From: an uncultured Bacteroidota bacterium
Lineage (GTDB): Bacteria > Bacteroidota > Bacteroidia > Bacteroidales > P3
NCBI GenBank assembly: GCA_902774395.1
Contig: CACYIK010000006.1
Span: forward strand, 1 to 64,000
DNA length: 64,000 nucleotides
Direction: 5' to 3'
The notes beneath the pieces were generated by a model. It ran no database searches. It was given only the letters and a program-made list of their open reading frames with translations, and was not told the DNA's origin. This document shows positions 15,276 through 23,994 of the stretch, piece by piece. The first letter of the stretch is position 1. Each line of letters begins with the position of its first letter. Both the position numbers and the translations under genes were made by a program.

Positions 15276-15357
15276 ATTCAGCCTTCTGCATGAAGTGAAC
15301 TTCATTCAGGCTGATTATTCAGCCTTCTGTATGAAGTGAACTTCATTCAGGCTGATT
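15276..15357 (-). repeat. 41-bp tandem duplication of the L31 3' tail
   Basis: Two 41-bp units (15276-15316 and 15317-15357) differ at one base. Each begins with the same bases that encode the last residues of L31 (AAGGCTGAATAA on minus), so the gene's tail occurs three times. Each unit can form a hairpin closed by CAGCCT/AGGCTG. Confidence 0.85.
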
Positions 15358-15619
15358 ATTCAGCCTTCTTGGCGTACTTTTTGTACTTGTTCATGAACTT
15401 GTCGACGCGACCAGCGGTGTCAACGAGTTTCAGCTTACCGGTGAAGAAGGGGTGCGAAGTGTTCGAGATTTCGAGCTTCACAACGGGATACTCATTACCA
15501 TCGGTATAGGTGACGGTCTCTTTGGTGTTGGCACAGCTCTTGGTGAGGATCATGTGGTCGTTGGACATGTCTTTGAACACCACGAGGCGATAGTTTTCGG
15601 GATGAATTCCTTTTTTCAT
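15356..15619 (-). CDS. rpmE2: 50S ribosomal protein L31 type B
   Basis: 87 aa. Large-subunit ribosomal protein of the type B form: [21 protein letters not shown] opening is diagnostic, with [24 protein letters not shown] downstream. It lacks the CxxC zinc pair of type A L31, so it should be zinc-independent. The 5' leader has an 8-bp hairpin at 15635-15659 and a good -7 box at 15693-15700. The 3' end is followed by duplicated copies of its own tail and a terminator. Confidence 0.95.
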
Positions 15620-15692: not shown

Positions 15693-15700
15693 CAAAGATA
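15693..15700 (-). promoter_or_regulatory. -7 box for rpmE2
   Basis: TATCTTTG plus CAGC on the minus strand, preceded by a TTTGCC-like upstream element about 22 nt away. Confidence 0.7.
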
Positions 15701-15752
15701 CAAACATTTTCTGAACTGGCAAAATATTTTTTTTCAAATGGCTTGATTCCTA

Positions 15753-16667
15753 TTACCAATTAACTATGGTATCCTTTTCTGTTTGTCGTTTCCACGAAGC
15801 ATACATCTTTTCTTGCCATTCCCAAATTGATGTTTGAGAGTAGTATGCACTTTCTTCCGCCATTAGGTAAAATGGAGTTACGCGGACATGGTAACCTTCA
15901 GGTGATGATCTATGGTGAGAGGCACAGTATGCGAACACACGGACGGTTTGCCTTTCATAAGCTTTTAAATGAACAGAAACGCTTTTTCTAATCACTAGAT
16001 TTTGCACGTTATCACCGATTGTTTCCAGCAACAAACCGCGACGTATTACCACATCTATTTCTCTGCCTGTCAAATTTTCTATCTCAAAGTATAGACCAAA
16101 TATGCTGTACCATCCGCTTGTGCCACCCTTTGTGTCAATCGGAGAGGTCTTTACCTCCACATCACCATTTAATATTCGATTGGGAAGGCCATCATCAGAA
16201 TCATCCACTCCTATACCAATCCTGTCCAATTCCGGGCCATTAATTGTTTCATCATCGTCACTTATTGATTTATTATCACCATTGGCATCAGCACAGGTTT
16301 CACCCAATAGTTTTGCGCCACCCATACCTTTGTCTTTCACCTTTTCAAGTTCGGGATATTGCCTAATAAAGCAATCTTCATATCTTTCCCCTGCCTGTAC
16401 TGGCACATAAATTGGCGTTTGTGTTATTCGGTTTGTGACATTTCGTACAGACTTTCGTGTACGCAATGACATATCATCATCATTGTCTGGTTCTAATCCA
16501 AGATCAGGTTCATCATCATATACAGAATATAACCCGGAACCAGGCTCTTCGCCAGTTGTACTTCCCGAACACTGATTAATTGCAACAAGTGCAACGATTA
16601 TTGCAGCAATAGCCAGTATTACCGCAATAATACGAAATCGGCGCTCCTCAGGTGTGAAGTAGCTCAT
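15753..16667 (-). CDS. Single-pass periplasmic protein, last gene of the G-protein operon
   Basis: 304 aa. A short N-terminus with arginines (EERRFR), one membrane helix at about residues 12-31, then an acidic, low-complexity periplasmic region rich in Asp/Glu (residues 40-160) and a C-terminal beta domain (GLYFEIENLTGREIDVVIRRGLLLE, then LKAYERQTVRVFAYCASHH) resembling DUF4384-like or Ig-like sandwich folds. Topology by positive-inside: N-in, C-out. Its start overlaps the preceding gene by 4 nt (ATGA), so it is translationally coupled. Lower GC than flanking housekeeping genes. Family not recognised. Confidence 0.75.
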   Translation of the reverse strand: MSYFTPEERRFRIIAVILAIAAIIVALVAINQCSGSTTGEEPGSGLYSVYDDEPDLGLEPDNDDDMSLRTRKSVRNVTNRITQTPIYVPVQAGERYEDCFIRQYPELEKVKDKGMGGAKLLGETCADANGDNKSISDDDETINGPELDRIGIGVDDSDDGLPNRILNGDVEVKTSPIDTKGGTSGWYSIFGLYFEIENLTGREIDVVIRRGLLLETIGDNVQNLVIRKSVSVHLKAYERQTVRVFAYCASHHRSSPEGYHVRVTPFYLMAEESAYYSQTSIWEWQEKMYASWKRQTEKDTIVNW

Positions 16668-17995
16668 AGCTCTACATGATACTTTATATTATAGAAATAC
16701 TGGTAATAGTCCTGTTGTGCAGAACTATAACTCCCTCCCCTGCCGCAACAACCTTTGATTCTTAATGGACCAGACCCCATTGTTCGATAGATACTTCTGT
16801 TTGTAGAGTTGTATTGCAGTCGCATACCGCTGCTTTCTGCGGTCAAACTATAATACCCGGAAGATGGTATTTTCAAGTTTACGCTCTTCTCAGAAAAAGA
16901 TGTGCTAGCATAAACTGTTTCAGAAGAAATGTAATCTCCGTCAGAATCACGTAATACTATTTGCACATAGCCGGATTTTTTAGCTCGAAGACTCAATTCG
17001 TCTATCACCACAGGAACGTCAGCATAAAACCACATTGCATAACCCTCATCATACGAATTATTGCTCTCAGCTGGCAGACCCACCGAATAGCGTAATGAAG
17101 CGTACCGTGACAATCGTTGACCCAGTTCCGCCATTTCATTTTTTTGTTTGACCACAGTATCCTCTAGTCTTGCAATATGCATCTTGTGTTGATTAATATC
17201 ATCTTTTTTTTGTGCAAGTTCCTGGTCTCGTTGCAGCACAGATTCTTCCAATGAACCTATTTCGGAGAAATTCTCACGGATAACATAGGCTGCCGCTGCA
17301 CCACCTACTAGTAATAACAGCAATAAGACAATAACCAGAGAAAATTGTTTTTTCTTTTTCCGTTCCTTATCGTATTTCTTTTCCCATTCAACATTCTGAT
17401 CATGCAATCGCGCCAGGCGTTCTTGAATGTCACTTAATCCCGAATGCCCGGCATCTCTAGTTACTGCCACACGGTCATACTGCGCCACCTTGTCGGCAAC
17501 AACAATCTCACCTTCTTCCAGATTCACGGTTGCATTACCTTGCCCAATTCGGAAAGAACGAGGCAAGGCGACGATACAGTTTCTTGGCAAGGTATCGATA
17601 ATGCGTTGTGTTTCTTTTTTCAGTTGGTTATATTGCGCATTTTGGTCATAGAACGATTGAGAATTAAACTCCACTTGGCCATTGTCGGCCACATGAATCA
17701 TCGAGCTTCCATATACGGCAGTTTCAAATATACGCTCCATTACATCGAAAGCCTTCTTCACATTGCGAAAATACACACCGTTGAATGTAAGGCTTAGTCC
17801 TACAAACTCATGGGTGCCTTTTTGCCCAATATGATGAAAGTATACATAGTGTATAATCTCTGGAGCATGCGAGATTACAAGTGTCTCGTCCCCTCGATGC
17901 AAAGCCGAACATTGTTTCAACTCATCATCTAAACCGTCGTGCGGATATTTTTCATATCCATTGCGAGAACCTATGATATGCAAGTCGTAGTTCAT
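16664..17995 (-). CDS. Bitopic protein with paralogous cytoplasmic domain, coiled coil and periplasmic beta domain
   Basis: 443 aa. Residues 1-195 form a cytoplasmic domain clearly paralogous to that of the next gene upstream: shared LHIIGSRNGYEKY / FYIFGVPDGFDMY start, FVGLSLTFNGVYF / FLGMALTFSERYY core and NCIVALPRSFRI / DCVVQMDETFRL. A Lys-rich stretch (KKYDKERKKKKQ) precedes one membrane helix (218-240), then a coiled coil (245-297) and a C-terminal beta domain (300-443) with two Cys at CCGRGG, in the style of a carbohydrate- or protein-binding jelly roll. It overlaps the next gene by 4 nt. Role inferred: link between a cytoplasmic event sensed with the G protein and the periplasm. Confidence 0.75.
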   Translation of the reverse strand: MNYDLHIIGSRNGYEKYPHDGLDDELKQCSALHRGDETLVISHAPEIIHYVYFHHIGQKGTHEFVGLSLTFNGVYFRNVKKAFDVMERIFETAVYGSSMIHVADNGQVEFNSQSFYDQNAQYNQLKKETQRIIDTLPRNCIVALPRSFRIGQGNATVNLEEGEIVVADKVAQYDRVAVTRDAGHSGLSDIQERLARLHDQNVEWEKKYDKERKKKKQFSLVIVLLLLLLVGGAAAAYVIRENFSEIGSLEESVLQRDQELAQKKDDINQHKMHIARLEDTVVKQKNEMAELGQRLSRYASLRYSVGLPAESNNSYDEGYAMWFYADVPVVIDELSLRAKKSGYVQIVLRDSDGDYISSETVYASTSFSEKSVNLKIPSSGYYSLTAESSGMRLQYNSTNRSIYRTMGSGPLRIKGCCGRGGSYSSAQQDYYQYFYNIKYHVEL

Positions 17996-18000
17996 GGTGA

Positions 18001-19836
18001 CTATTCTCTTATAACTTTAATCTTCAATTTTATACCATTTATACCAAACGTATTAATAGTGGCTGTAACTATTCCATTTGATTTTTCCTGAATACCAATC
18101 TTATACAAAGTAGAAGTGTTTTTCGCTGCGGTAAGCCCCTGTCCAATCTGTTCCCACTTTGCAGTATGCCCATTTTGTAATTCAAAAACAATATTATCTT
18201 GTTTTGTCCTATACTCATATTCATATGTATTTCCAGACTTTTTGGTTAGATTTATAGATTTGCCATCTATTTTTAATGCAACATTGCCTTCTGTAGGTGT
18301 AACTTGGGGGGTGTTTTTTGTTTCACCATCTTTCTTTACGACAGAACCACTTTGGCTCTCTGCAGAACCACTTCGGGTAGTGCTGGACGAAGCGCCAGAA
18401 TCTGAATTAGTGGCACCACTTGCTTTCTCACCATTAAGATTAAGCAGAGTCGAGTAATTACTATTTAAATCGCGTAATTTACTAGCAGCATTAATTGTAT
18501 CATTTTTTAGGGTCTCAATGTCGCTATCGCTTACACTATCTTTACACAAAAGATCGTTTATATTTTTTGTATATCCCTGAATATCGTCAATTAGTTGAGC
18601 AACTTTTCCATAGTTATAAGATGTTTTAAATGAACTATCAATAGTGTCTAATCCATTTTGAATTTCCGAAAGTGTTGAATCTGTCTTGTCACGAAAATCC
18701 GCAAAAGATGTTTTGTCAAAATCAGATTTTCCCGGCAGTGTGCCTTTGGGCCAGAAAACTATCAGCAGAGTAATCACAGCGAGGACACATGCAGTAGCAA
18801 ATAGTATTTTCTTTTTATTTCCTTTTTTCCGTAATATTTCGTCTATTCGGTTAATGTCGGAACTAATCTGGATGGCAAGACTGTTGCCTTCATTTGTTCC
18901 TACAACGTATTTCAGGTTATTTAACCGTTGTTGTATTATCTTTAGTTTTTTCCTTTTTTCTATTAGGACATTCGCACGCTGCTTATCTGATATGGACTTG
19001 TGAAGAATACTAAACTCTCCAGCCAGGTCTCTCAATATCTTTTTCTGTCGTTCCTGCTCGGAGGTGATAATCGGGTCAACAATTGGGTCAACTTTTGGCT
19101 GAACTACCGTAGGTGGTTTTGGGGAGTCCTTGGGTGAAGTGGAAGATTTCTGGATGGGTACCGATGGTTGCGATGAAGAAGCAACGGGAGGATTTGGCTG
19201 TGCAACTACTTGAGATGGAGAAGTAATGTTCTGTACTGGTGCAATAGCCCTTTCTGACAAATACACCCAGGAGGCTGTCTTCAGGTTGGCAATAATATGC
19301 TCCGATTTTGTGTCAAGATAAAGACCCTGCTTTAGGCTTACCGACTGCGTGTTAAGGCGGAACGTCTCGTCCATCTGTACAACACAATCGCCAAACCATC
19401 CACGCGTTTGCTCCTCAACAAATTCTTCTATCTTGATTATCGCTGCTGTTCCTTCTGCGAAACGACCAATTCTGTAACGGGCTTGTCCTGCAGACGGGAT
19501 AATTCGCGTTGTTAAAATAACATCCTTTGACAGAGCAGAATAAATTTCTTCGAAGAGATTAAGCAATTTGGGAATATCGGTACAGTAATATCGTTCGGAA
19601 AAAGTGAGTGCCATGCCCAGAAATGAATTAGGACGCCCTTTGACTGACTGCATATTGTACCGCAAGTATATATACGAAACCTCGCTATTGTCAGCATTGC
19701 GATAAATGGCCATTTTCCTTCTATCTCTGCAATCGCTATCATACAAGAGTTGGAACAGGTTTATCCTTTCCGGGGTTGCATTGTACATGTCGAACCCGTC
19801 GGGTACTCCGAATATATAGAACTGAGGGTTATTCAT
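18001..19836 (-). CDS. Bitopic protein, long paralogue of the preceding type
   Basis: 611 aa. Cytoplasmic N-terminal domain (1-195) homologous to that of the 443-aa neighbour; then a Pro/Ser/Gln-rich linker (198-258), a helical segment (260-340), a Lys-rich flank (KKGNKKK), one membrane helix (343-363) and a periplasmic half: helical region (370-470), Ser/Thr/Gly linker (475-515) and a beta domain (518-611, ends LKIKVIRE). The same N-terminal domain fused to a different outer end is the interesting point. Five nt separate it from the 443-aa gene. I know no named family. Confidence 0.75.
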   Translation of the reverse strand: MNNPQFYIFGVPDGFDMYNATPERINLFQLLYDSDCRDRRKMAIYRNADNSEVSYIYLRYNMQSVKGRPNSFLGMALTFSERYYCTDIPKLLNLFEEIYSALSKDVILTTRIIPSAGQARYRIGRFAEGTAAIIKIEEFVEEQTRGWFGDCVVQMDETFRLNTQSVSLKQGLYLDTKSEHIIANLKTASWVYLSERAIAPVQNITSPSQVVAQPNPPVASSSQPSVPIQKSSTSPKDSPKPPTVVQPKVDPIVDPIITSEQERQKKILRDLAGEFSILHKSISDKQRANVLIEKRKKLKIIQQRLNNLKYVVGTNEGNSLAIQISSDINRIDEILRKKGNKKKILFATACVLAVITLLIVFWPKGTLPGKSDFDKTSFADFRDKTDSTLSEIQNGLDTIDSSFKTSYNYGKVAQLIDDIQGYTKNINDLLCKDSVSDSDIETLKNDTINAASKLRDLNSNYSTLLNLNGEKASGATNSDSGASSSTTRSGSAESQSGSVVKKDGETKNTPQVTPTEGNVALKIDGKSINLTKKSGNTYEYEYRTKQDNIVFELQNGHTAKWEQIGQGLTAAKNTSTLYKIGIQEKSNGIVTATINTFGINGIKLKIKVIRE

Positions 19837-19868
19837 TATTGCTTAATCTCTTCTAAGGAAATAATTAT

Positions 19869-20795
19869 CTATTTGCGTATGGCATTCCAAAGCATTGCGG
19901 GGTAATAATCTACCCCTGCAGTATAATACTCGCCTCCGTTCTGCGCAGCATTAAATGTACCTGCAGAGAAAGGAACAAATGTATAGTTGTGTGGTCTCCA
20001 TAAGCGAGATATTGGATGATGGTTCTCGTAAGGTTCAAAAATGTTGATATTGCGCTCTGAGAATTGTTGGCGTATTTCGCTGTGAAGCTGGTTGATATTT
20101 GGCCGTCCATTCCCCAAGAAAGGTACACCACACTCGGGCCTATCTACTCGAGTACAGACAAATATAACTTTGTCCTTTGGAGTTACCATGGGGGCGCCTA
20201 CTCCATTTCTCATTCCTCTGATACGTTCAGCCAAATGAGCTCGCATCACTTGGTCATCGCCCCAATTCTTTGCGAGGAAGAACACCCAAACTTTGCGGTT
20301 AGGGCAACTGAAAATATTGTTAAGATACAGGGGGAATCCCTTGGTGACATCTTTTGTGTCAAAATAGTGTTCACCAGGGGCCTCAACTATTTGACAAATA
20401 GAACGCCGACTGTCTGATACCTTGACAAGCATGAAGTTAACCACGCCAGTTCCGCCACCAGTTGTCGGCGAATATACCACATCATGAAAGTTTTTGCACA
20501 ATGCTTGATAGCGTGTGTCATATGCCGGTCGGAAAATGGGATCGGGCATTACGTTGTAGCTTTTGCTCTCAAGATAACGTGTAAGGCGTATCAATGCCAT
20601 GGTCTTACCTATTGTACGTGCCCCAAACATAATCACCAGAGGTGTCTGTTGGTCGGTAATGGCGGTGATAATTGAATTGGGGTCATTCAATTCCTGTTCT
20701 GAATAGGTTTGGGTACCTTCCAGAAAATCGGGGTTGTCACTAATGGGAGGCTGACCGCCTGCACCAACGGTGTCACTTAAATCAAGTGTACTCAT
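19869..20795 (-). CDS. Small TRAFAC-like G protein / P-loop GTPase
   Basis: 308 aa, soluble. P-loop GARTIGKT (58-65) fits GxxxxGK[ST]; a switch-II-like site reads VEAPGEHYF (G3 DxxG replaced by ExPG, residues 137-145); G4-like VCTRVDRPE (213-221, TRVD for [NT]KxD). The N-terminal 45 residues are acidic and disordered; the C-terminal 100 residues are specific to this protein. It lies between the paralogous bitopic proteins and the four-helix membrane protein. In known bacterial conflict and envelope systems such GTPases act as switches; that role here is inference. No transposon or phage genes nearby. Confidence 0.75.
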   Translation of the reverse strand: MSTLDLSDTVGAGGQPPISDNPDFLEGTQTYSEQELNDPNSIITAITDQQTPLVIMFGARTIGKTMALIRLTRYLESKSYNVMPDPIFRPAYDTRYQALCKNFHDVVYSPTTGGGTGVVNFMLVKVSDSRRSICQIVEAPGEHYFDTKDVTKGFPLYLNNIFSCPNRKVWVFFLAKNWGDDQVMRAHLAERIRGMRNGVGAPMVTPKDKVIFVCTRVDRPECGVPFLGNGRPNINQLHSEIRQQFSERNINIFEPYENHHPISRLWRPHNYTFVPFSAGTFNAAQNGGEYYTAGVDYYPAMLWNAIRK

Positions 20796-20815
20796 ATTTG
20801 TTGAATTTTAGGTGA

Positions 20816-21904
20816 TTAATATTCGCGTTTACGGAAAGCAATGTCAAAGAAGATGAATCCGGCCACGTCAACCATGATGGCCAAGATAACCCAGAACCAC
20901 AGGCCACGACCTTTGTATATGGGGTCACCAGCGAAAAGACCTTTCCATACGTCAATAACACTACGCATTTTAGAGGTTTGTGTAACGTTAGTTTTATACA
21001 GGCGTACATTTTCCTGTACTGGTATCAATTCTTCTTTATGCGTGGAACCAAATTCATTTTGTAGATAATCCATGTATTCACCAATGAGAGTGTATGAACG
21101 AGTAAGAACATGGTCGGTGGCGACAGTTGGTTCGTCGTTCTTTTCCGGATGTTCTTTTATCTTTTTTTCGATGGTCGTGATGGCTTTGATATTATCATTA
21201 ATATCCTTTTTGCTCTTATGAGATGCAATAGCAGCGAGGCGAGCATCGTAGATTTCTTTCATGCGAGACTGCTTCGCTTCTTCGACACGGCCACCAAGAA
21301 TCTCTATCAATTCTTGTCGGCCTTGATGAGTGTTGTTACGTAACTTTACACGCTGTATTTTTGTTCCCAATTCAGCTTCGAGTTGCAGCATTGCCTGCTC
21401 CGCAGCATCAGCCCAACCCAGATTGCCTGGATTATTCACTTCCAGGGCGACATTTTTCCAGAGATTGTCTATTTTGTTGCTGAAAGCTGCTTTGTCGGCA
21501 TCAATAATGCGTTTGGCCGTCTGGTCGTCTGCTAGGTCTTGAAGGCGGGATTTTGTGTTTGCCAAATCCTGTATCAAAACATCCTTAATGGTGGATTTAT
21601 AGAAAAAAGTATGTGTATTGGTGGGAATGCTGAAGATAACCCAGAAGAGGAGCAGGATCACAATACCACCGGCGATGTTTCGACCTGGATGCTCGGTGTC
21701 TACATACTTGTTGCAACTATCGACTATCAGTTTAGTTCCAAGCGATGAAAGCACAAAGAACACAATGGTAACAACCCAGAAGATTATCACAGGCCAATCG
21801 GGCAAAAGCAAGTGCAATGATGCTGTGGTCGCCCAACAACTAATTACCATCAATGCCGCAAAAGCGACCATTGAAAAAATTTTCATGAATCCGTTCTTTT
21901 CCAT
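20816..21904 (-). CDS. Four-helix membrane protein with large periplasmic coiled-coil loop
   Basis: 362 aa. Membrane helices at about 9-30, 37-58, 77-94 and 335-355. Between helices 3 and 4 lies a 240-residue mainly helical, charged loop (KDVLIQDLANTKSRLQDLADD...), long enough for a coiled coil across the periplasm. By the positive-inside rule both termini are cytoplasmic. It sits 20 nt upstream of the G-protein gene and is likely its membrane partner. The overall layout recalls DUF4407-type proteins, but I see no clear motif match. Confidence 0.75.
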   Translation of the reverse strand: MEKNGFMKIFSMVAFAALMVISCWATTASLHLLLPDWPVIIFWVVTIVFFVLSSLGTKLIVDSCNKYVDTEHPGRNIAGGIVILLLFWVIFSIPTNTHTFFYKSTIKDVLIQDLANTKSRLQDLADDQTAKRIIDADKAAFSNKIDNLWKNVALEVNNPGNLGWADAAEQAMLQLEAELGTKIQRVKLRNNTHQGRQELIEILGGRVEEAKQSRMKEIYDARLAAIASHKSKKDINDNIKAITTIEKKIKEHPEKNDEPTVATDHVLTRSYTLIGEYMDYLQNEFGSTHKEELIPVQENVRLYKTNVTQTSKMRSVIDVWKGLFAGDPIYKGRGLWFWVILAIMVDVAGFIFFDIAFRKREY

Positions 21905-21925
21905 ATTATTATAGTATTAATGTTG

Positions 21926-22918
21926 TTATCTATTGTAATATTTTATTTCTCGTTTTCTTGTCTCTTTCCCGTCAATAATACGTAGCGTCCAGTTTCCGGC
22001 ACCATCATATTCTTCTTTATATGTTACGACTGTCGGTTGTGACTGCCGTCCATATCTTTTTGTTGCAGGTGTGCGTGTTAGTCGAAAGCCTGTGTGGTCA
22101 TATCTGTATGTATCACTACGCACCAAATCGAAATCTGCGTTGTAAACTTCAACCTTAATCAACCTACCCTCGTTGTCATATAAGTAGTGCATATTTGTAT
22201 CAGTTCCACATGACATGTCGGTTAGTATACCCGCTTCATATTTAAGAGCTTTTGTTTTCTCCCCAGAGGCTGTATAATGACGTTCACGGCAGGTCTCAGC
22301 ATCGTCTTCATATTCGTATTCAATTCTTTCTTCCATTTCTCCAGCATCAAGGTTCGGGTGTTTTGTCACAATTGCTTGTTCCAATTGGGGATCTTTGCCA
22401 TAGTCGGAATAGTAATAGTGCCATTGGGTGGTGATTCCTGTTTCTTGGCAATAGGTGCGCATCTCCAGTTTGATGTTGTTAAGATAGGTTGTCGTTGTCT
22501 GCTCGTGCAATCTTCCATGGTCTTTAACCAAGAATCGACTTTTAATGTAACCTTCGGGAGCGTACTCTGTCCGGCAGTAATAGATTGTGTCGGGTACTTG
22601 TCTGGTAACATGTTCCACTACCATGGTATTTCTCTTTACCTTTCTTGTTACCACTTTTTTGAAAAATAAAAATACACGATGAGTATCTTGCACATTAACC
22701 AAGGTGTCTTTTTTTACGTGAATAGTGTCGGGTTGTAATCTACTGCCGATGTTTGACTCTTCCACGATATGAACTCTCCCATATAGGCCATCTGTTTGGC
22801 GGTCATTTGGAATGTTCTGTGAAAAAGCCGACTGACTTGTAAAGACGAGTGTTGCAGCAATCAATACTGTCCTCAACAATTTGCACTTTTTGTAGCTTCT
22901 GTCCACCATGAACATCAT
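21926..22918 (-). CDS. Secreted YD/RHS-like repeat protein, first gene of operon
   Basis: 330 aa from the ATG at 22918 (alternatives 22909 and, less likely, 23002). Signal peptide (LLRTVLIAATLVFTSQSAFSQ shown in part, cleavage after about residue 34). The body has tyrosine-rich strand-turn segments as in YD repeats (YLYDNEGRLIKVEVYN, YRYDHTGFRL, YKEEYDGAGNW) common in Bacteroidota periplasmic or surface proteins. It ends 21 nt before the four-helix protein. It may be an outer partner of the system or a hitch-hiker. The ATG near 23002 lacks support because the signal peptide lies far inside. Confidence 0.7.
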   Translation of the reverse strand: MMFMVDRSYKKCKLLRTVLIAATLVFTSQSAFSQNIPNDRQTDGLYGRVHIVEESNIGSRLQPDTIHVKKDTLVNVQDTHRVFLFFKKVVTRKVKRNTMVVEHVTRQVPDTIYYCRTEYAPEGYIKSRFLVKDHGRLHEQTTTTYLNNIKLEMRTYCQETGITTQWHYYYSDYGKDPQLEQAIVTKHPNLDAGEMEERIEYEYEDDAETCRERHYTASGEKTKALKYEAGILTDMSCGTDTNMHYLYDNEGRLIKVEVYNADFDLVRSDTYRYDHTGFRLTRTPATKRYGRQSQPTVVTYKEEYDGAGNWTLRIIDGKETRKREIKYYNR

Positions 22919-23303
22919 TTCATTGTTGTGGCAGATACCGTGCCGGATTCTGTTGTTGGGTTGAGGAATAAAGTAAAAAGAAGCGCGGGTATCGCAGTTC
23001 ATCGCTTATCCCGCTAACCAGGCTCTCGCATTGCCTACTGTCTGAGAATAAGCAATGCCCGAAGCCCGCACTGTAGGCGCAGCACAAAAAAGTGTTGTAC
23101 CATACCACGAACGGAGGCAATTGCTTTATCTTGCAGACAGTTTCGAAATTGCGAGATTCGGTTAGCCGCAGATAAAACGTTTCGCTCAACGTTTCCTTTT
23201 CAATATCCTATCGCCCACCCTTCACTTGGTCAAAAGAATACACAAACTATTGAATATCAAAATATTCCTCAACCTATTCCCTAACAACGTTTTGGGTGTT
23301 TGA
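22919..23303 (-). other. Long leader of the G-protein operon
   Basis: About 380 nt between the predicted start of transcription and the first gene. It keeps no plausible gene, although one 89-codon frame stays open (23189-22920). It shares short blocks, in the same order and orientation, with the leader at 57048-57302: 15 of 18 bases match at 23167-23184 versus 57266-57283. Possible structured RNA or a degenerate mobile repeat. Confidence 0.4.
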
Positions 23304-23308
23304 CGACG

Positions 23309-23316
23309 CAAATTTA
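23309..23316 (-). promoter_or_regulatory. -7 box for the six-gene operon
   Basis: TAAATTTG plus CG on the minus strand, with TTTTGCC about 25 nt upstream; the best promoter candidate between msrA and the operon. Confidence 0.6.
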
Positions 23317-23448
23317 CGAATATTTTTCGAACTGGCAAAATATTTTTCTCAAAATCAGCAAATATTGACAAAGGACGGGCCAGAGCGACGGTGATTCCCG
23401 GCGGAGGGTCGTATACAATAAATGACGACAGTCTGCGTTATAAGGGAC

Positions 23449-23994
23449 ATGACAAAGACAATATTTCTTGCGGGAGGATGCTTCTGGGGCATCCAGCACT
23501 ATCTGAAGCAGATCAACGGCATCACCGAGACCCAGGCGGGTTTCGCCAACGGCGACGAAGAATATGCACAGCGCGTGGCCGAGGGCAACGGACCGACCTA
23601 CGAGGAGGTGTATACCGACACCACGGGATTCGCCGAGACGGTGCGTGTGGTCTACGACGACGAGGTGTTGCCGCTGAAGAAACTGCTGGAGCTCTACTTC
23701 CTATGCATCGAGCCCACGTCGGTGAACCGGCAGGGCGACGACGAGGGCACGCGCTACCGCACAGGCATCTATTACATTGACCCCGAGGACCGTCTGGTGA
23801 TTGACGAGGTGTACCGCGCGGTGGGACACGGCTATTCCTCGCCGCTGGCGGTGGAGGTGGAGCCGCTGCGGGTCTTCCAGCCCGCCTCGGACTACCATCA
23901 GGACTACCTCGCAAAGAATCCCGACGGATACTGCCATATCCCTGAGGCTCTGTTTGAAATGGCACGAAGAGCCAACCGGAAAGTTGAAAATTGA
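23449..23994 (+). CDS. msrA: Peptide-methionine (S)-S-oxide reductase
   Basis: Repairs oxidised methionine by reducing methionine-S-sulfoxide. The signature GGCFWG places the catalytic Cys at residue 11; also GFANG, TYEEVYTDTTGFAETV and FQPASDYHQDYL, all MsrA landmarks. I start at the ATG at 23449 by homology; an upstream in-frame ATG at 23422 adds nine residues. No MsrB domain or neighbour. The last residues (RKVEN) and stop are encoded by the start of a TTGAAAA-type repeat tract (23985-24015), so the C-terminus has been rewritten by a spacer repeat. Confidence 0.95.
   Translation: MTKTIFLAGGCFWGIQHYLKQINGITETQAGFANGDEEYAQRVAEGNGPTYEEVYTDTTGFAETVRVVYDDEVLPLKKLLELYFLCIEPTSVNRQGDDEGTRYRTGIYYIDPEDRLVIDEVYRAVGHGYSSPLAVEVEPLRVFQPASDYHQDYLAKNPDGYCHIPEALFEMARRANRKVEN

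Follow-up and report, generated by a model that had tools for sequence, protein, structure and literature searches.

A 64,000-nucleotide stretch of DNA from an uncultured Bacteroidota bacterium of the order Bacteroidales (GenBank assembly GCA_902774395.1, contig CACYIK010000006.1, positions 1 to 64,000; hereafter, the window) carries a minus-strand operon that encodes a G protein and several membrane proteins, and the question raised by this locus is whether the genes form one system and, if so, what that system does. The operon consists of six open reading frames (ORFs) encoding proteins of 330, 362, 308, 611, 443 and 304 amino acids (aa), in that order, with intergenic gaps of 21, 20, 32 and 5 nucleotides (nt) followed by a 4-nt overlap. 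The ORF coordinates bear out the preliminary description of this DNA, which had reported six same-strand genes with a 4-nt overlap or gaps of 5-32 nt, and the one good promoter that it had noted was recovered as a Bacteroidales-type motif; such motifs number 10 in the window versus 0.56 expected in shuffles. The promoter and the six genes, four of which are called T, G, N1 and N2, are as follows.

23309..23339, minus strand: operon promoter, Bacteroidales-type, TTTG-N19-TAAATTTG (TTTGCCAGTTCGAAAAATATTCGTAAATTTG), from a motif search
21926..22918, minus strand: secreted YD-repeat-like protein with a signal peptide, 330 aa, accessory (ORF; homologue only in locus L089)
20816..21904, minus strand: T, four-helix membrane protein, 362 aa (ORF, hydrophobic segments, AlphaFold)
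19869..20795, minus strand: G, P-loop G protein, 308 aa (ORF, motifs, profile comparison)
18001..19836, minus strand: N1, bitopic protein, 611 aa (ORF, topology, AlphaFold)
16664..17995, minus strand: N2, bitopic protein, paralogue of N1, 443 aa (ORF, topology, hhalign)
15753..16667, minus strand: accessory single-pass protein, 304 aa (ORF, family members in other loci)

The core of this operon is a conserved, mobile and undescribed cassette of the Bacteroidales. Homologues of G, approximately 37% identical, were present in three other Bacteroidales genomes, and the protein was not found in the 36 same-genus genomes first searched. An alignment of these four G proteins was used as the query for a scan of 84,980 genomes, which returned 79 loci, nearly all in Bacteroidales and mostly from dense host-associated communities (rumen, gut, mouth); the few loci titled Clostridia, Clostridiales, Bacilli, Roseburia or Opitutales come from short contigs of metagenome-assembled genomes and could reflect misbinning. 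Profile searches on the genes called in the 79 loci revealed a fixed order, T-G-N1-[AP]-N2, in which AP is a lipoprotein-like retropepsin homologue found in 53 loci and lacking from the window copy. T lies before G in 71 of 78 loci, and N1, usually also N2, follows G; 41 loci are complete, 18 lack AP, 9 lack a recognised N2, and the others are contig-cut, broken or divergent. When matches stronger than E 1e-20 were counted in 393 Bacteroidales genomes, G, T and N1 each identified the identical set of four, and carriage of the cassette is about 1% of Bacteroidales genomes. Neighbourhood conservation had been set beforehand as the test on which the description could fall, and these results left it standing. 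That two or more unrelated operons merely lie side by side is extremely improbable: the genes at the two ends, which encode the YD-like and the 304-aa protein, are in fact rare accessories, but the order is invariant in about 70 loci and the genome sets of G, T and N1 coincide, and chance adjacency of the four core genes is refuted by these observations. The six-gene observation is real, and its core genes belong to a conserved system. Neither the cassette nor a longin/GTPase phage defence was found described in a literature search of incomplete coverage.

In the window, the operon forms a GC-poor insert between rpmE2 and msrA, which are neighbours separated by 199 nt in a congener (G003, locus L130). 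The two flanking genes are as follows.

15356..15619, minus strand: rpmE2, left flank; adjoins msrA in the congener without the operon
23422..23994, plus strand: msrA, right flank

The operon sits upstream of the rpmE2 promoter, and the intergenic sequence shared with the congener stops there. The GC content of the operon genes is 0.40-0.46, and their GC content at third codon positions (0.32-0.45, versus 0.69-0.86 in the flanking genes) agrees with the lower GC noted earlier. The flanks of the nearest homologous operon (L089) are unrelated to those of the window, and one cassette copy, on an IMG/VR contig, lies beside a tyrosine integrase and HsdS-like fragments; searches with G of plasmids, phages and (single-sequence) viral contigs gave no match. 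The rpmE2 promoter (window 15693-15723) and the operon promoter (23309-23339), at opposite ends of the insertion, share TTTGCCAGTTC, which could be a recombination footprint or merely a common promoter type.

N1 and N2 both appear to span the membrane once. N1 has a cytosolic domain (residues 1-200), a helix near residue 344 and a hypervariable periplasmic C-terminus, and N2 has a shorter cytosolic N-domain, a helix near residue 221 and a periplasmic C-terminus. Lysine and arginine residues before versus after the helix number 3.5 versus 2 in the N1 family (n=72) and 5 versus 2 in the N2 family (n=55); this excess before the helix fits an N-in/C-out topology, and the Lys/Arg-flanked layout proposed earlier is supported for these two families. 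The claim that two bitopic proteins share a cytoplasmic domain also held, since N1 and N2 are homologous in an hhalign comparison (probability 99.5, E 1.4e-22), and on this profile evidence they are paralogues. The two ends of N1 evolve very differently. In a comparison of the window with L089, identity is 97% for T, 89% for G and 54-59% for the two accessory proteins; the cytosolic domain of N1 is 88-95% identical, versus mostly 12-38% after the helix, and this pattern of conservation inside and variability outside recurs in other close pairs. As a separate observation, a gene for an N2-like bitopic protein at L151:7330-9632 (G247) precedes a GH25 muramidase gene, with neither G nor T present.

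The cytosolic domain of N1 very probably has a longin fold, as judged from its predicted structure. Two features of N1 bear on this assignment.

19237..19836, minus strand: N1 predicted longin domain (AlphaFold pLDDT 88.7, Foldseek)
19633..19635, minus strand: N1 Arg68 codon, candidate arginine finger (invariant in 74/74 N1 homologues)

The AlphaFold model of this domain (pTM 0.86) has the order b1-b2-a1-b3-b4-b5-a2-a3, and its top Foldseek matches were TagF (E 2.3e-4), FLCN-FNIP2, the Lst4 longin and GATOR1 chains. This order of strands and helices is that of a longin. TagF is soluble, has no membrane helix and is not known to be encoded with a stand-alone G protein, unlike N1. TagF of type VI secretion systems (PDB 9t0n, 6iz8, 2qnu) resembles N1 as the best Foldseek match of its domain, and the TagF Pfam domain gave no match among the families shown for N1 members. 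The longin assignment is held short of certainty because the TM-scores are modest, at 0.3-0.45 when scaled to the query length and no higher than 0.53 when scaled to the target. Arg68 lies in the b4-b5 loop, which is gapped in 53 of 60 N2 sequences, and the window N2 has no equivalent arginine. In the SMCR8-C9orf72 longin pair the catalytic arginine is carried by one partner, and FLCN and NPRL2 have been proposed to carry it within their own pairs (PMC8213707); by analogy, Arg68 may act as the catalytic arginine of an N1/N2 pair. The cassette resembles the longin heterodimer regulators (FLCN-FNIP2, NPRL2-NPRL3 in GATOR1, and SMCR8-C9orf72; PMC8213707) in its predicted longin fold, in combining a single G protein with two longin paralogues, and in the invariant loop arginine of one of the two; however, N1 and N2 are bacterial and membrane-anchored, have no DENN domain that was seen, are unrelated to these regulators by sequence, and have only a putative role as a GTPase-activating protein (GAP). 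The MglA/MglB switch (PMC11016934) likewise puts a bacterial small G protein under a regulator, here of the roadblock class, whose fold is related to longin, and differs in having no envelope-spanning parts and in controlling cell polarity. Separately, an RxG motif is invariant in 11 of 11 GAP1-N1 proteins (L096-L106) and aligns with the position of N1 Arg68, and GAP1-N may also be a longin.

G carries recognisable G-protein motifs at three positions.

20601..20624, minus strand: G1/Walker A motif GARTIGKT, G residues 58-65 (GxxxxGK invariant in 53/53)
20370..20384, minus strand: G3 motif EAPGE, G residues 138-142 (E, G and E invariant)
20142..20153, minus strand: G4 position, TRVD, G residues 215-218 (NKxD in most relatives)

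The G4 position deviates from NKxD in the window G and in its near-identical relative. Sequence searches of the PDB with G returned generic P-loop matches only. In a profile-profile comparison (hhalign) with DO-GTPases, represented by GTPases of a set of GAP1-N1-type loci, G scored a probability of 89.5 and E 1.9e-6, which suggests that it is distantly related to them; single-sequence matches to DO-GTPase2 were absent for the window G and weak in 4 of 53 relatives (best E 0.0053). The cassette shares with the DO-GTPase/GAP1 systems (Kaur et al. 2020, PMC7159879) this probable remote G-domain homology, a (D/E)APGE-type G3 motif, a constant GTPase core with variable parts, common transmembrane segments, and TIR and calcineurin-like domains among the effectors; one divergent TIR-G protein (L082) also has an N-terminal cysteine-rich ribbon like that of DO-GTPases. 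It differs from them in having a pair of longin proteins that each cross the membrane once, a four-helix protein and, as a rule, a retropepsin-like lipoprotease, and in lacking the three-domain GAP1 protein, GASH, FNIII and, in most loci, the GTPase pair of GAP1-N1-type systems (the window has a single G, and a second G gene is present in only 4 of 79 loci: L017, L020, L073 and L077). The Pfam domains GAP1-N, GAP1-M and GAP1-C were found neither in the operon proteins nor among the Pfam families shown for 52 members of the N1 family; Pfam and NCBIfam gave no GASH or FNIII match in the operon, and T compared with GASH at a probability of 0.3 percent. Profiles of N1 and N2 do not match those of GAP1-N1 significantly; the N1 alignment is collinear, but N1 is not claimed as a GAP1-N1 homologue. 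Membership of the GAP1-N1 or GAP1-N2 type is very unlikely: the remote G homology, the four DO-GTPase2 matches and the collinear RxG of GAP1-N1 speak for it, whereas the want of any GAP1-N/M/C match or significant GAP1-N1 profile match in N1, of a GASH or FNIII protein, and of a second GTPase in most loci speak against it. By those defining features, which it lacks, the cassette is not a GAP1/DO-GTPase member.

T was described earlier as a four-helix protein with a 240-residue periplasmic loop, and this is borne out by hydrophobic segments starting near residues 5, 39, 77 and 339, which enclose a loop of approximately 240 residues; three N-terminal helices and one C-terminal helix thus surround a helical periplasmic loop, and the AlphaFold model is all-helical. 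The best Pfam lead was DUF4407 at 20.4 bits (cut-off 31.3), so by sequence T is weakly DUF4407-like, and a fold search against the PDB gave no significant match (TTYH2, E 0.12). None of the six operon proteins matched Pfam or NCBIfam above the curated cut-off. The initial view that the operon's domain set had no match was nonetheless too strong for G, for the predicted longin domain of the bitopic proteins and, weakly, for T.

The links of the cassette to immunity come from its relatives and neighbours. Fusions to effectors occur in the most divergent G domains: TIR domains at L082:380-1849 and L091:9377-10774, with more TIR genes adjoining (a TIR-FGE protein in L082) and without T, N1 or N2, and a calcineurin-like phosphoesterase at L083:8642-10501, which lies between HsdS- and HsdR-like genes in a type I restriction-modification operon and also matches PADLOC PDC-S60. 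GAP1-N1 systems, too, have TIR and calcineurin-like domains as effectors (PMC7159879). In four loci (L022, L042, L052 and L033), the cassette has ZorB-like MotB genes next to it, together with MotA-like partners, and the three ZorB-like proteins scanned with PADLOC scored E about 1e-11 to 1e-12. This resembles the ZorA/ZorB motor of Zorya (PMC11890865), from which the cassette differs in that the window operon has no motor and no ZorC, ZorD or ZorE was recognised. As a side observation, an ATPase and DUF4276-like pair adjoining the cassette at L008:3741-5542 is reminiscent of known abortive-infection pairs.

The cassette is best read as a distant relative of GTPase-centred conflict systems that works like a receptor-coupled GTPase switch. 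That it is a mobile conflict system, acting as a trans-envelope GTPase switch or alarm and most likely directed against phage, is a reading that we hold at roughly even chances. The earlier proposal of a trans-envelope switch, perhaps for defence or conflict, gains good support as a class from the conserved, mobile and patchy cassette, the combination of conserved cytosolic with hypervariable periplasmic parts, the effector-fused G relatives and the ZorA/B-like motors; the target may be phage, rivals or other envelope insults. Several results weigh against the anti-phage reading. Effector fusions (3/79) and Zor-like motors (4/79) are a small minority of loci; PADLOC revealed no clear defence enrichment in genes near versus far from the cassette, whose neighbours are mostly housekeeping, and matched no core window protein well (best E-values 0.04 or worse among the operon proteins); the TM-scores of the longin assignment are modest; and fast-changing periplasmic parts also fit recognition of rivals. 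Phage defence is thus the best of several readings and not a result.

Contact-dependent inter-bacterial competition or self/non-self recognition, in which the variable periplasmic parts would bind a neighbour's partner protein and the G switch would trigger an envelope response or effector release, would explain the hypervariable C-termini of N1 and N2, the secreted and lipoprotein accessories, the retropepsin-like protease, the subtilase-like and GH25 muramidase genes of some copies, and the dense communities inhabited. We consider it unlikely, however, as no toxin-immunity pair, secretion system or delivery domain was recognised among the core and accessory genes, and the Zor-like motors and the TIR- and phosphoesterase-fused relatives point to intracellular defence. 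The housekeeping neighbours, the DUF4407-like membrane protein, and the BACON/TPR, GH25 and amidase-like genes near some copies would suit a non-conflict switch that senses cell-wall state or polymers, responds to envelope stress or nutrients, and regulates envelope remodelling, with patchiness reflecting niche adaptation; this too is improbable, given the rarity of the cassette in Bacteroidales, its absence from the 36 same-genus genomes first searched, its foreign-composition insertion, the effector-fused G relatives and the rapid divergence of the exposed parts.

Under the preferred anti-phage reading, the variable periplasmic or lipid-anchored parts (the C-termini of N1 and N2, the secreted and lipoprotein accessories, and AP where present) would detect an intruder or damage to the envelope, or act on it, and one helix of each protein would carry the signal to the longin domains, paired in the cytosol. 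This pair, as a heterodimeric regulator, would hold G at the membrane; N1 may supply the arginine finger, and disturbance of the pair would change the GTP state of G. Switched G would then act on T (by gating, clustering or opening) and/or release periplasmic hydrolases, such that the intruder or the cell is stopped. What the data show is the gene set with its order and co-occurrence, the mobility, the homologies, the predicted fold, the topology signals and the pattern of conservation; that the proteins form a complex, that it has GAP activity, that G is specific for GTP, that T is the output and that phage is the trigger are what we infer here. Few bacterial systems, to our knowledge, have a GTPase switch driven from outside the cytoplasmic membrane. 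It is possible, if rather doubtful, that the cassette represents an entirely new class of bacterial immune or conflict machinery. In such a receptor-coupled G-protein module, a GTPase tethered to the membrane would be controlled by two single-pass receptors that combine longin-type GTPase-regulator heads with outer domains that evolve rapidly; the module would parallel eukaryotic longin-GAP/GTPase signalling in function and would be trans-envelope in bacteria, with GAP1-N and TagF as distant longin relatives. If the switch reading holds, Bacteroidales of the gut and mouth have a mobile immune module of a receptor-like kind, whose regulator fold (longin), lone invariant arginine and hypervariable outer domain can each be mutated and tested directly. 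Prokaryotic GTPase-centred conflict systems would also be tied to the eukaryotic longin GAP and guanine nucleotide exchange factor regulators of Rag/Arf/Rab GTPases, and a role of GAP1-N domains would be hinted at.

The genes around the core are more variable. AP matches ApRick (5c9b) by profile at E 4.9e-6, and 32 of 33 AP proteins carry the D[TS]G motif. The YD-like gene probably starts at the ATG at 22918 (330 aa); an in-frame upstream ATG at 23002 (358 aa) is less likely because the signal peptide begins at the later one. The 304-aa protein gave no match in a PDB sequence search, and its family is present in up to six other loci (L089, L073, L027, L044, L046 and L059), the weakest member being that of L059, an N2-type protein that may be a spurious inclusion. 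At L027:14650-15900, L044:14352-15620 and L046:14090-15358, family members are lipoproteins with an extra C-terminal region (GHxF...DCTSF) that gave no Pfam match and resembles a permuted papain-type hydrolase. Three extra genes that are absent from the window follow the cassette in the nearest homologous operon (L089:14974-18153). Accessory genes in other copies encode BACON/TPR, subtilase-like and GH25 proteins, and L062, too, has a GH25 muramidase gene downstream of its cassette.

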